Position numbers and translations under genes: made by a program. Below, piece after piece: positions 51,568 through 55,961 of a stretch of 64,000 nucleotides of DNA. The DNA lies in contig JAJFTL010000022.1 of NCBI GenBank assembly GCA_021373025.1, positions 1 to 64,000 on the forward strand, read 5' to 3'. Origin of the DNA: a bacterium (GTDB lineage Bacteria; Caldisericota; Caldisericia; Cryosericales; Cryosericaceae). The number at the start of each line of letters is the position of its first letter. Position 1 is the stretch's first letter. Below the pieces are notes generated by a model. That model did not search any database, was not told the origin of the DNA, and saw only the letters and a list, made by a program, of their open reading frames with translations.

Positions 51568-52800
51568 CTAGCGGGCTGCAAACGCCTCTGCGATTCCGAC
51601 AATGACTTGAACAGCCTTCTCCATGGACTGGACGACGACGTACTCGAAGGGACCATGGTAGTTGCGCCCTCCAGTAAACAGATTGGGACAGGGAAGCCCC
51701 ATGTAGCTGAGACGCGCTCCATCGGTTCCACCCCGGACAGGTTTTACGATGGGCGCGACACCTAGTCGCTCCATTACGTCTCGGGCGACGTTGATGAGCA
51801 CCATGTTCTGCTCAATTACCTCACGCATGTTGTAGTAGGAGTCGCGTACGGCTACGACAACGGTATCTTCCCCGTATTTCGCGTTCAGGAAATCGCAGAT
51901 AGCGTGAGCGAGACTCTTCCGTTGCTCGAAATGGAGTTTGTCATGATCACGAATGATGTACTTCACTTGCGCTTTTTCGCATGTTCCAGAGATCTCGGTC
52001 AGATGGAAGAAGCCTTCGTACTTCTCGGTGGAGCGAGGTGTTTCATCCGCAGGAAAGAGGCTTGTCAGCTCCGAGGCTATGAGTGCAGCATTCTTCATAA
52101 TACCTTTCGCTGAGCCCGGGTGAATGCTTTTTCCATCAATCTGGAATTCGGCCGATGCAGCGTTGAAGTTCTCGTATTCAAGACTGCCTAGCTCATCACC
52201 ATCCAGCGTGTATGCGTATCTGGCACCAAACTTGGTCACGTCGAATCGATCAACGCCCTGCCCAACTTCCTCATCCGGTGTGAAGGCGATTTTGATGGTG
52301 CCATGTTTTACCCCGGGGTGCGCCAGCAGGAATTCTACTGCTGTCACGATCTCTGCAATGCCTGCTTTGTCATCAGCTCCCAAGAGTGTGGTGCCATCTG
52401 TGACGATGAAGTCCTCGCCTTTGTGCAGCAACATATCGGGGAATTCGGCCGGGCTGAGGACGATGTTCTTTTCTGTATTGAGCACGATGTCACTGCCATC
52501 ATAGGAGGTGATGAGGCGAGCTTTCACTCCCGCACCCGATGCGTCGGGAGACGTGTCCATATGGGCCAGGAAGCCGATAACTGGTACTGCGTACGGATCG
52601 TCGCAGGTTGCCGGAACAGTTGCCGTTACATAGCCATTATCATCAACAGATGAATCGGTCAGCCCCAGTGATTTGAGTTCTCTGTCCAGCTCAAGGGCAA
52701 GAGCAAGTTGTTTCTCAGTACTGGGAAACGTGACGGAGTTCTCGTCCGACTGAGTATCGAAGGAAACATAGTGCAGAAAGCGATCTACCAAATTGCTCAT
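51568..52800 (-). CDS. pepT: Peptidase T (tripeptidase)
   Basis: A 410-residue zinc aminotripeptidase of the M20B family. Metal and catalytic residues are visible in IGFLAHMDTSPDASG (first zinc histidine and catalytic aspartate), TTLLGADDKAGIAEI (bridging aspartate), TPDEEVGQG (catalytic glutamate pair) and the late VRGGTDGARLSYMG. It removes N-terminal residues from tripeptides in the cytoplasm, matching the Opp peptide importer elsewhere in the window. Its start overlaps the preceding gene by four bases. Confidence 0.95.
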   Translation of the reverse strand: MSNLVDRFLHYVSFDTQSDENSVTFPSTEKQLALALELDRELKSLGLTDSSVDDNGYVTATVPATCDDPYAVPVIGFLAHMDTSPDASGAGVKARLITSYDGSDIVLNTEKNIVLSPAEFPDMLLHKGEDFIVTDGTTLLGADDKAGIAEIVTAVEFLLAHPGVKHGTIKIAFTPDEEVGQGVDRFDVTKFGARYAYTLDGDELGSLEYENFNAASAEFQIDGKSIHPGSAKGIMKNAALIASELTSLFPADETPRSTEKYEGFFHLTEISGTCEKAQVKYIIRDHDKLHFEQRKSLAHAICDFLNAKYGEDTVVVAVRDSYYNMREVIEQNMVLINVARDVMERLGVAPIVKPVRGGTDGARLSYMGLPCPNLFTGGRNYHGPFEYVVVQSMEKAVQVIVGIAEAFAAR

Positions 52801-53264
52801 GTACTCCCCTTTCCGGAAATGTTGGTATTCTCAGCATTTATCATTTGTTGATTCAGTCTAGTTAGTATTTGCAGTGCAAGCAGAGGTTCAGTGACTCCAG
52901 TTATCGCCGCTTCCATCGGACATGGACCTGTACCGGTTCTGTTACGTATTTCCGGAGTAGCTTCGTCAAACATGAAAGCAATGCCAGCTTTGTGCAGGAC
53001 ATCCTGGGCCCCAGTACTCATCGTCATGGCAAAGACAGACCGCGGATGCACGAGTGTGAACAACAATGCAGCCGCGCGTCCGACCAGCTTGTCTCCCCAA
53101 TCCAGGTCACTACAGTCAGCATATGACTGCATCCCAGCCACGTTCAGGAGGTCGGTTATTCCTTGTCCGCTGAAACAGTACACGAGTATACCGTCTTTCG
53201 CTGCACAGAGGGTCCCCTCTCCTTTTCTAATTGCTGAGTGAACAAGTTGTTCGTTTTCCGTCAC
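52797..53264 (-). CDS. DUF1893 family protein coupled to pepT
   Basis: A 155-residue protein with the DUF1893 pattern: GEGTLCAAKDGILVYCFSGQGI, GDKLVGRAAALLFTLV and the C-terminal NRTGTGPCPMEAAI. The family has a deaminase-like fold but no proven function. The stop overlaps the pepT start (ATGA), which suggests a shared role in peptide or amino-acid turnover. The start is directly after an AGGAGG-type site. Confidence 0.85.
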   Translation of the reverse strand: MTENEQLVHSAIRKGEGTLCAAKDGILVYCFSGQGITDLLNVAGMQSYADCSDLDWGDKLVGRAAALLFTLVHPRSVFAMTMSTGAQDVLHKAGIAFMFDEATPEIRNRTGTGPCPMEAAITGVTEPLLALQILTRLNQQMINAENTNISGKGST

Positions 53265-53367: not shown

Positions 53368-53396
53368 TTGACTCCGTGGCGCCACTAGTATACTAT
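53368..53396 (+). promoter_or_regulatory. Promoter of the metal exporter-fur operon
   Basis: TTGACT (53368-53373) is followed after 17 bases by TACTAT (53391-53396); TATACT (53389-53394) overlaps it at 15 bases. Predicted start near 53403. Confidence 0.7.
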
Positions 53397-53408
53397 TATT
53401 GAACTTGT

Positions 53409-53423
53409 TGCAAATCATTTGCA
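53409..53423 (+). promoter_or_regulatory. 7-1-7 palindromic operator, likely Fur-family binding site
   Basis: TGCAAAT (53409-53415), one base, then ATTTGCA (53417-53423): an exact 7-1-7 inverted repeat. This is the layout of Fur, Zur and PerR boxes, though the base sequence differs from the classical ones. It lies a few bases after the predicted transcript start and 20 bases ahead of the gene, so a bound repressor would block transcription. The operon's second gene encodes a Fur-family protein. Confidence 0.7.
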
Positions 53424-53442
53424 TGTATGGAGAAACCGGTCA

Positions 53443-54363
53443 ATGGTGGCTACAATAGTGGAGTCGCTGAAGGATACGCTGAAGATGGTGCCGATTCTGT
53501 TCGTTGTCTATCTGGTACTGGAGTATGTCGAAGCCAGATGGCAACAACGAATGGTGGATGCTGTGGAGCGGGCGGGGAAGCTTGGACCTGTCGTTGCCTC
53601 CGTGGGGGGTGCCATTCCCCAGTGTGGTTTTTCCGTCATGGCAAGCGCTCTCTATACAGAGCGTTTGCTGACCATAGGGACTATTGTTGCCGTGTATCTT
53701 GCGACGTCTGATGAGGCGCTTCCCATTCTTCTTTCAAAGCCTGGCCAGGCGCACATCGTGCTGCCCCTCATCGGGATCAAGGTCGTCCTGGCTGTGGCAG
53801 GAGGTTACCTTGTGGACGCGGTGATGCGCACCGAAAACCGAAGGTGGACAGAGTCTGGCCGCGATCGGCAGGAAGCAGAACGGGAAGCGATCAGAATTGG
53901 TGAACAGAACTGCACATGCGACGGGACTCGTGCCTCTTGTGTATGCGAGCAGACTGGCGTTATTGACTGGAAGGAGATCTTGTGGTCGGCTGCCAAGCGC
54001 ACCATTCAGATCTTCCTGTATCTTCTCGCGACATCTATTATCCTTGGTCTGCTGATGAGCTGGATAGGACAGGCGAATCTGTCCCGGCTCCTCCTGAGCC
54101 ATACGGTTTTCCAGCCTGTTCTGGCTGCCGTTATCGGACTGATACCAAATTGCGCTGCCAGTGTTGCGATCACCGAGTTGTATGTGACCGGAACGCTCAG
54201 TTTTGGCTCTGCCATCGCTGGCCTGGGTGCGGCGGGCGGCTTGGGTCTTATCGTCCTTTTTCGGGAGAATCACGATCCAAAGAATACTGCGAAGGTAATT
54301 GTCTGGCTGCTTGGCATCAGCATTACAGCCGGCATTCTCGTGCAGTTGCTGGAAAGGGGGTAA
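53443..54363 (+). CDS. Putative heavy-metal exporter (ArsP_2/DUF2899 family)
   Basis: A 306-residue membrane protein with two similar halves of hydrophobic helices. The conserved blocks are GGAIPQCGFSVMASALYTERL and GLIPNCAASVAITELYVTGTLSFG, one in each half, each with a Pro-(Gln/Asn)-Cys motif and polar residues within helices. The family is called 10TM putative heavy-metal or manganese exporter. The central cytoplasmic loop has a Cys-rich patch (CTCDGTRASCVC) that may sense or bind metal. ATG 53443 has TATGGAG ten bases upstream. A Fur-family regulator follows after four bases. Confidence 0.82.
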   Translation: MVATIVESLKDTLKMVPILFVVYLVLEYVEARWQQRMVDAVERAGKLGPVVASVGGAIPQCGFSVMASALYTERLLTIGTIVAVYLATSDEALPILLSKPGQAHIVLPLIGIKVVLAVAGGYLVDAVMRTENRRWTESGRDRQEAEREAIRIGEQNCTCDGTRASCVCEQTGVIDWKEILWSAAKRTIQIFLYLLATSIILGLLMSWIGQANLSRLLLSHTVFQPVLAAVIGLIPNCAASVAITELYVTGTLSFGSAIAGLGAAGGLGLIVLFRENHDPKNTAKVIVWLLGISITAGILVQLLERG

Positions 54364-54367
54364 GGAG

Positions 54368-54823
54368 ATGGATACATTGAGTGGAAAGGAACTGCTGCAG
54401 TTTCGGACGGCCCCGCAGCTGAAGGGATTTCGTCTTACACGAGAGCGCAGGGTCATTCTCAATGTGCTTCTTGAGGCAGAGAAGCCCCTCACTGCAGAAG
54501 AGATCCTTGAACGACTCCAAGCAGACATAGCCCTATCCACCGTGTACCGAACGCTCGACAAACTCGTTCGTCGGGGTTATGTTCAGCAGACGCTTCTCAG
54601 CACGGACGGCCATGCGGTCTTTGAACTGACAGGAAAAGCCCACAGGCATTACATGGTGTGTCTTGACTGTCATCGCATGTTCCCCCTGGCGAGTTGTCCG
54701 ATCAAGGGTTTCCATGACCGTTCGGCTGAGGAGGTGGACTTCGAGGTCGTGGACCACAGCCTTGTGCTATATGGGTATTGCCACGATTGCCGCGCTAGAC
54801 GAAAATCGCTGGGTTCGCAGTGA
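54368..54823 (+). CDS. Fur-family metal-dependent transcription regulator
   Basis: A 151-residue regulator with the winged-helix DNA-binding domain (FRLTRERRVILNVLLEAEKPLTAEEIL..., ALSTVYRTLDKLVRRGYV recognition helix) and a dimerisation domain with HRHYMVCLDC and CHDC, the structural zinc site. The sensory HxHxxC region AHRHYMVC is present. It is expressed with the exporter and would bind the 7-1-7 site upstream. Metal specificity cannot be assigned; an extra cysteine in ASCPIKG is notable. Confidence 0.9.
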   Translation: MDTLSGKELLQFRTAPQLKGFRLTRERRVILNVLLEAEKPLTAEEILERLQADIALSTVYRTLDKLVRRGYVQQTLLSTDGHAVFELTGKAHRHYMVCLDCHRMFPLASCPIKGFHDRSAEEVDFEVVDHSLVLYGYCHDCRARRKSLGSQ

Positions 54824-54827
54824 TCAA

Positions 54828-55961
54828 TCAGCCGAGCTGGTCAACGACACTTGTCAATTCATCCCGAATCGAGATGTGCTGTGGACACTTGTCTTCACAC
54901 AGACCACAACGGATGCAGCTTTCAGCGGATGAACCCTGCTCTTTCATCTGGACGTATCTGTTGCGTTGTGCGTCCCAGCTTCCGAACATGGACCGCTCAT
55001 TCAGCAACTGGAACATACCCGGGATATTGACACCGTTGGGACAGGGCATGCAATAGCTGCATGCCGTACAGGGCACTCGGATCAGCTCCTCATAGGCGTC
55101 GCGCACGCGTGAAACCAGTTGCAGATCGCTGGAAGAGAGCATACCTTGTGACGATCGACCTGCGGCCGCCAGATTCTGCCGAACCTGCTCCATGGTGCTC
55201 ATGCCACTCAGCAGCAGCGAAACCTCAAGATGATTCCACACCCAATCCAATGCCCATTCAGCAGCTGAACGTGGTGTTGAAGCTGTATTCCAGAGTGCCG
55301 AGATCTCCGGATTTGGTAGAGCCAGTTTTCCCCCACGAAGAGGTTCCATGACCACGATGCCAAGCCCCTTGGATGCAGCGTACAGCAAGCCATCAGTTCC
55401 TGCTTGCATCTGTTCGTCAAGGAAGTTGTACTGGATTTGGCAGAATGTCCAATCTTGATAGGCGTCAATGATTTCGTGGAAAACAGTACCAGTATCATGG
55501 AATGAGAATCCAAGATACGCAATACGTCCCTCCTTGATTCGTTCATGCGCCCATTCGATGACTCCGGCATCGCGGAGGTTATGCCAGCGTTCAGCGTTGA
55601 GTGCATGCAACAGATAGAATTCGACGTGGTCCGTCTGCATGCGCTGGAGCTGCTCTTCGAAGTAGCGGGTCATGTCCGCCGACGACTCGATGAGCCAGGA
55701 CGGCATTTTGGTAGCCAGATGAACGTGGGCGCGGTAGCCTTCCTGGAGAGCCTTGCCGACTAGAAGTTCACTCTTGCCTCCGTGGTACGAGTATGCCGTA
55801 TCGACGTAGTTCACTCCGCCGTCGATTGCAGTTCTCAGCATGTCGATGGCTAACTGTTCATCGATTGCAGAAGGATCTCCATCCACAACAGGCAATCTCA
55901 TGGTGCCAAATCCAAGTGCAGATGGCTTCTAGTCAAGTTTTCCGAATCTTCTGTAATTCAT
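54828..55961 (-). pseudogene. Aldo/keto reductase with C-terminal ferredoxin domain, interrupted by an amber codon at codon 11
   Basis: The intact part (from 55901) is a 357-residue aldo/keto reductase: GGVNYVDTAYSYHGGKSE with the catalytic tyrosine, HLATKMPSW with the lysine and FYLLHAL with the histidine. The C terminus has CTACSYCMPCP and CIRCGLCEDKCP, two [4Fe-4S] motifs. The natural N terminus is missing from that reading, but a perfect match, NYRRFGKLD-stop-KPSALGFGTM, begins at ATG 55961. The stop is TAG (55929-55931), where relatives have tryptophan (TGG). A promoter lies immediately upstream of 55961. The gene may be newly inactivated, or may restart at 55901 without its first strand. 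Confidence 0.75.

Follow-up and report, generated by a model that had tools for sequence, protein, structure and literature searches.

Which metal does a Fur-family regulator sense when it shares an operon with a putative metal exporter, does it repress or activate that operon, and in which direction does the transporter move its substrate? These questions are raised by a two-gene operon in the window analysed here, a stretch of 64,000 nucleotides from a genome (G000; 1.6 Mb, 97.9% complete) of the genus Candidatus Cryosericum, on whose metal biology no paper was found in the open-access literature. The preliminary description of this DNA presented the operon as a metal exporter and its own regulator behind an unusual operator, and left the metal and the sign of control undecided, which we judge to have been right. 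Here, we propose that the operon is of the Zur type and is repressed by zinc, and that its transporter imports zinc; to this account as a whole we give a probability of about 0.6.

The operon and its setting

The open reading frames are found as they were first described, with the transporter gene followed, after a gap of 4 nt, by the gene of its Fur-family regulator (Table 1). The start codon of the transporter was picked by homology, and a TTG at 53419 is a further possible start. The operon is flanked by a divergent gene at 52797-53264 (minus strand), which encodes a DUF1893/TM1506 domain protein of unknown function, and by a convergent downstream gene at 54828-55901 (minus strand), which encodes an aldo/keto reductase with a 4Fe-4S dicluster domain.

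Table 1. Features of the operon, in window positions.
Feature	Positions	Strand	Basis
-35-like box TTGACT	53368-53373	+	TTGA at -41 from the operator in 10/13 genus promoters
-10-like box TATACT	53389-53394	+	TATA(A/C/T)T at -20 from the operator start in 11/13 genus promoters
Operator TGCAAAT-C-ATTTGCA, proposed Zur box	53409-53423	.	Genus conservation; copies before other transporters and znuABC
ArsP_2/NF037962 membrane protein, proposed zinc importer, predicted elevator-type fold	53443-54363	+	Profile matches, AlphaFold2 model, VIA-align
P59-Q60-C61-G62, first predicted hairpin tip	53617-53628	+	Invariant in 61 aligned rows; helix break at 58-60 in the model
P235-N236-C237, second predicted hairpin tip	54145-54153	+	Invariant in 61 aligned rows; helix break at 233-236 in the model
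Gene of likely Zur-type, Fur-family regulator	54368-54823	+	PF01475; fold match to Fur-family structures
His92 and His94, at the positions of SynZur Asp77 and His79	54641-54649	+	Alignment
Cys110, at the position of SynZur Cys95	54695-54697	+	Alignment
His130, at the position of SynZur His115	54755-54757	+	Alignment

An operator just downstream of the -10 box

The exact palindrome TGCAAAT-N-ATTTGCA (TGCAAATCATTTGCA) lies just past the -10-like box, and its Fur-type 7-1-7 geometry is upheld. If the transcript starts 7 nt past that box, the operator would span about +9 to +23. The spacer between the -35-like and -10-like boxes reads 15 bp, which is short for sigma-70. The operator is the sole match to its 15-mer in the window at up to three mismatches; since 3.2 such matches are expected by chance, their number is uninformative by itself. 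Likewise, the window holds five perfect 7-1-7 palindromes, against a mean of 5.1 in ten first-order Markov sequences. The palindrome by itself is not above chance; its location and its conservation raise it above chance.

Conservation was followed through 15 genomes of the genus, 13 of which carry the transporter. The best operator match at these 13 promoters is exact in seven, has one mismatch in four, two in one (G011) and three in one (G014), so that the operator is kept at 0-2 mismatches in 12 of the 13. The motif is therefore present at orthologous promoters, on which the preliminary description had made its operator depend. In G014, where the copy has decayed, no Fur was detected (the genome is 87% complete) and a different gene follows the transporter. 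The -10-like box stands at -17 from the operator in G003; in G006 none is found upstream, and the operator precedes a TATACA. Across all 15 genomes, 13 sites were found at up to one mismatch and none with a reversed-pattern control, and 11 of these sites lie at promoters of the transporter. A one-mismatch site in the window's own genome (L002) and an extra site in G009 (L024) lie inside open reading frames and were set aside. A search of the window's own genome at up to two mismatches gave four sites, as many as the control, hence no excess, and the sole promoter found at the motif there is that of the transporter-fur operon itself.

Fur was found in 11 of the 15 genomes (in G006 below the cut-off), and all 11 also carry the transporter. 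It was not found in G005, where the contig stops about 100 nt past the transporter. Absences in the genus are soft, because completeness reaches 90% in only four of the 15 genomes.

The motif before related transporters and before znuABC

Outside the genus, we examined 69 loci among the best 80 of 555 relatives of the transporter. In seven of these 69 loci, the 300 bp ahead of the transporter contain the motif at up to one mismatch, compared with none in any of 40 shuffle sets that preserve dinucleotides; at up to two mismatches it is found in nine, against a shuffle mean of 0.33 and a maximum of 2. Some of these loci are kin (L045, L047 and L049 are 83-86% alike in DNA, L054 and L085 90%), so the seven stand for about five independent lineages and the nine for about six. 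At up to one mismatch, the motif is absent from the other 62 of these 69 homologues.

A whole-genome search of the nine genomes with the motif before the transporter at up to two mismatches found 23 sites at up to one mismatch, compared with none for a reversed control. Seven are transporter promoters, three lie at two znuABC clusters and 13 elsewhere; for 12 of these 13 (all save G069:C25), a check by eye found no zinc gene. In Clostridium sp. N3C, two exact copies precede znuA-znuC-znuB, and in a Bacillota genome a one-mismatch and a two-mismatch copy lie between znuA and znuC-znuB-fur; the ZnuA, ABC and ABC-3 proteins of the clusters were confirmed with Pfam. Ten genomes yielded six ZnuA loci, and at four of these the motif is absent. 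The transporter aside, the genes of known function at the operator are thus zinc importers.

These copies also bear on the half-site, which had been called unusual. Exact or near copies precede znuABC in two genomes, and the identical 15-mer lies within an engineered feoAB1 operator, modified at three bases, which was co-crystallised with Magnetospirillum Fur and bound by it with Mn, as described in the accessible portion of PMC4506495. The half-site hence falls inside the range of sequences known to be recognised by Fur-family proteins, and the description of it as unusual is not supported.

A second sample of 398 genomes yielded 22 near-full-length transporter matches, 21 of them with loci. 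Three repeats were removed (L204, L205 and L209, which equal L045, L079 and L059, respectively), leaving 18 new transporters, of which one (L212) has the motif upstream. In L217 the motif precedes an adjoining upstream fur gene, and a Fur-like gene lies within the examined stretch in nine of the 18.

Other palindromes were seen at related loci. The consensus of Streptomyces coelicolor Zur is TGAAAATGATTTTCA, according to the part of PMC2823685 consulted, and the fur-transporter operons of L107 and L108 carry TGAAAATGATTTTCA 8 nt downstream of a TTGACA-17-TATACT promoter. Their layout, with the box downstream of the -10, is the same as in the window's operon, the box being the S. coelicolor consensus. 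In one Bacillota lineage, a different conserved palindrome resembling AAATCAGAANNATTCTGATTT (AAATAAGAATGATTCTGATTG in L207) is found upstream of the fur-transporter operons of L079/L205, L206, L207 and L208. Two kindred deltaproteobacterial genomes have TGCAANTGAGTTGCA palindromes at -103 (L054) and -168 (L085) from the transporter match, and sites of the TGCAAATGATTTTCA type precede homologous 460-aa open reading frames in two deltaproteobacterial genomes (L161 and L162).

In the genomes of L054 and L085, a Fur-family protein was not found, though the motif precedes the transporter; another regulator or incomplete genomes may be the explanation. Together with the chance-level number of perfect 7-1-7 palindromes in the window, these two genomes are what speaks for another reading of the motif, either as a site bound by some protein other than Fur or as a chance palindrome that has been retained on different grounds. 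This we consider barely credible, given that none of the 40 shuffle sets reproduced the occurrences among the 69 promoters, that fur adjoins the transporter, and that the motif decays where Fur is not found.

The sign of control

A protein bound downstream of the -10 box blocks transcription, and the place of the operator in the window is accordingly that of a repressor site. For comparison, the boxes through which SynZur, the Zur of Synechococcus WH8102, represses znu overlap the -10, in the part of PMC9337993 that deals with them. The reverse arrangement, in which the regulator would activate a zinc exporter at high zinc, has precedents in the accessible sections of two reports: S. coelicolor Zur activates the exporter gene zitB (PMC5472717), and SynZur activates a metallothionein (PMC9337993). 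However, the box that serves activation at zitB is placed upstream of the -35, at a distance of 8 nt (PMC5472717), whereas the present operator lies downstream of the -10, at a fixed spacing in 11 of the 13 genus promoters. Furthermore, znuABC, which is preceded by the same motif, would then be switched the wrong way. We regard activation of an exporter as very improbable, and repression as the sign of control is what we infer.

The regulator

The regulator matches PF01475 (E 5.9e-22) and no NCBIfam model above its cut-off; no second PF01475 protein was found in the window's own genome. Its AlphaFold2 model (pLDDT 80, pTM 0.67) matches many Fur-family structures in Foldseek, including that of SynZur (7ne9; E 1.5e-10).

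Fur-family sensors normally bind their regulatory metal between their two domains. The classical inter-domain His pair of Fur, PerR and Mur (H-x-H-x2-C) is replaced here by Arg93 and Tyr95 in 10 of 10 aligned genus sequences, at positions that two His ligands occupy in E. coli Fur. As judged by sequence, the regulator has instead a sensory site of the SynZur type (a Cys with two or more His), formed by H92, H94, C110 and H130. These residues are kept in 18, 19, 17 and 19 of 19 aligned relatives, respectively, and in all 10 aligned genus sequences. The Cys4 structural zinc site is likewise present, C98, C101, C138 and C141 being invariant in both alignments. SynZur also lacks the inter-domain site and senses zinc through D77, H79, C95 and H115, with a His at the D77 position in 11% of cyanobacterial Zurs, as reported in the portion of PMC9337993 available.

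The regulator thus resembles SynZur in its predicted Fur fold, its Cys4 site, the four aligned sensory positions and the missing His pair. The two differ in that the regulator has a His for the Asp at the first ligand, at about 30% identity overall, and in that it shares an operon with a transporter, whereas SynZur controls znuABC and a metallothionein. The Fur of the Bacillota znu cluster shares the H-x-H / C-P / H signature. Of 10 genomes searched for Fur, eight have any, and each of the eight has one with the signature, the Cys being one residue nearer in four of them. The full signature is found in the Fur of four of the 12 non-genus loci that have a Fur within 4 kb (L059, L063, L079 and L098). 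Taken together, these residues make the regulator likely to be of the Zur type, with a His-His-Cys-His sensor of the cyanobacterial kind, and the system would then be a Zur-type one of less common sensor chemistry.

An alternative is that the regulator senses manganese or iron, under Mur-, Fur- or PerR-like control, and that the transporter handles that metal. The product name 'putative manganese transporter' would fit, as would the binding of DNA containing the 15-mer by Magnetospirillum Fur with Mn noted above. The loss of the canonical His pair to Arg93 and Tyr95 argues against it, however, and both the Cys ligand and the link to znuABC point to zinc; we find this alternative improbable. 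We consider with good confidence that the operon senses zinc and is repressed.

The transporter

The transporter is a clear sequence member of Pfam ArsP_2, a "10TM heavy-metal exporter" family (E 3e-27; 96.1 bits against a cut-off of 32.5), and of NCBIfam NF037962, 'arsenic efflux protein' (E 9.7e-85; 284.4 bits against a cut-off of 100). Export of arsenic or heavy metals by this family is a label only: no experiment on the function of ArsP_2 was found in the open-access literature, and nothing on point there links the family to Zur. The exporter of the preliminary description has its support in these Pfam and NCBI labels, whereas three features speak for uptake under repression by zinc, and not for arsenic: the ligand set of the regulator, the operator held in common with znuABC, and the placing of that operator where a repressor would bind.

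The transporter was aligned in 61 rows, comprising six genus sequences and 55 from outside the genus; six of the 69 non-genus loci were barred from the structural alignments by a stop in the matched range, and 55 of the other 63 were used. Few residues are invariant, among them P59-Q60-C61-G62, S89-D90-E91, K113, D125 and P235-N236-C237. The AlphaFold2 model (pLDDT 88.5, pTM 0.87) contains helix-turn-helix hairpins with a Cys at both tips. In VIA-align it matches structures of AbgT, ArsB, DASS, CNT and TRAP carriers with Z of 11-15.5 over 255-286 of its 306 residues, values to be read against the Z of about 14 that helical models can reach without kinship. The top 45 rows listed are all of elevator-carrier kinds, after which Z falls to 5.6. 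Foldseek matches to the PDB are weak, with best E-values of 0.02 and above. A PDB sequence search returned designed proteins only (E 8e-4), which were taken as chance.

We therefore predict an elevator-type fold from the model. Compared with the known elevator carriers (AbgT YdaH, ArsB, VcINDY, TRAP, CNT), the transporter is shorter, has 5-12% identity among the rows listed, and bears a Cys at both hairpin tips. The fold does not decide the direction of transport, because exporters (ArsB) and importers share it. A search of plasmids gave two matches to the transporter. One of them, annotated 'putative manganese transporter', lies within a few genes of a P-type ATPase and an ArsR-family gene, and its upstream region showed no conspicuous 7-1-7 Fur-like site.

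Neighbours and metal transport in the genus

Among the neighbours of the non-genus transporter loci, 112 of 132 open reading frames were tallied, 20 having been left out by hand. Fur is the commonest family (10/112), DUF6155 is the second commonest (5/112), and Nramp accounts for 2/112. ZnuA and ZnuB were not found beside the transporter by phmmer in the open reading frames of 80 loci (the best 80 of 555). Within the genus, ZIP was found in none of the 15 genomes, four of which are at least 90% complete, and the ABC-3 matches in 10 of the 15 are all FecCD permeases. The window's own genome has two cation-efflux (CDF) proteins, encoded on contigs that lack the motif.

When the window and 45 homologue loci were scanned with Rfam, no metal-ion riboswitch was found. 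Besides tRNAs, the scans returned only two cobalamin riboswitches, both at L054 (4240-4408 and 6184-6369) and downstream of the transporter. An open reading frame near them (in L163) is one that we take to be CbiM-like. A link to cobalt in that lineage is possible on these grounds. Manganese, too, is possible as the metal, in view of the two Nramp neighbours and the NCBI name 'putative manganese transporter'.

These observations bear on the chief remaining rival, in which the transporter would export a competing metal (such as Mn, Fe, Cd or Co) and be repressed by zinc-loaded Zur, so that it would be made in zinc starvation only and would keep wrong metals from zinc sites. Consistent with it are the presence of an exporter, ArsB, among the closest folds, the NCBI labels of arsenic efflux and putative manganese transporter, the Nramp neighbours, and the cobalamin riboswitches beside one homologue. 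On the other hand, the remaining genes of known function found at the operator encode importers, and the genus would then have no known high-affinity zinc importer of the ZIP or ABC-3 kind, as none was found and its ABC-3 matches are FecCD. We consider export of a competing metal unlikely. Export of zinc itself would work backwards under repression by zinc, which favours import, and import is the direction that we infer. The transporter is most likely a zinc importer, and the label of exporter is probably wrong.

A proposed zinc-starvation switch

In the proposed account, the dimerisation domain of Zur would hold a His-His-Cys-His site for the sensing of zinc, like that of cyanobacterial Zur. 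With zinc bound, the protein would occupy the operator just past the -10 box and block transcription of the transporter gene and of its own gene. When zinc is scarce, the repressor would release the operator and the transporter would be made. The transporter would be a zinc importer of elevator-type fold, with a Cys in each hairpin tip, and would probably serve as the main high-affinity zinc uptake system of the genus. As in known bacterial Zur-znuABC regulons, a 7-1-7 operator is in the position for repression, and the same operator precedes znuABC in two genomes. The controlled gene differs from those regulons, being neither an ABC nor a ZIP transporter.

In the phylum of Clostridium sp. N3C, near-full-length members of the transporter family occur in 21 of 398 sampled genomes; counting weak and partial matches raises this to 47. 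We put at about even odds a broader reading, in which this family, distributed among Clostridia, Cryosericum and other anaerobes and labelled as arsenic or heavy-metal exporters, constitutes a novel class of zinc importers under Zur control. These would have an elevator fold with two cysteines at the substrate site, and in Cryosericum they would take the place of ZnuABC and ZIP. If the account is true, the presumed direction and substrate of this transporter family would be corrected, and the cyanobacterial-type sensing site of Zur would extend beyond cyanobacteria. It would also provide a route of zinc entry for anaerobes in which no known importer has been found.
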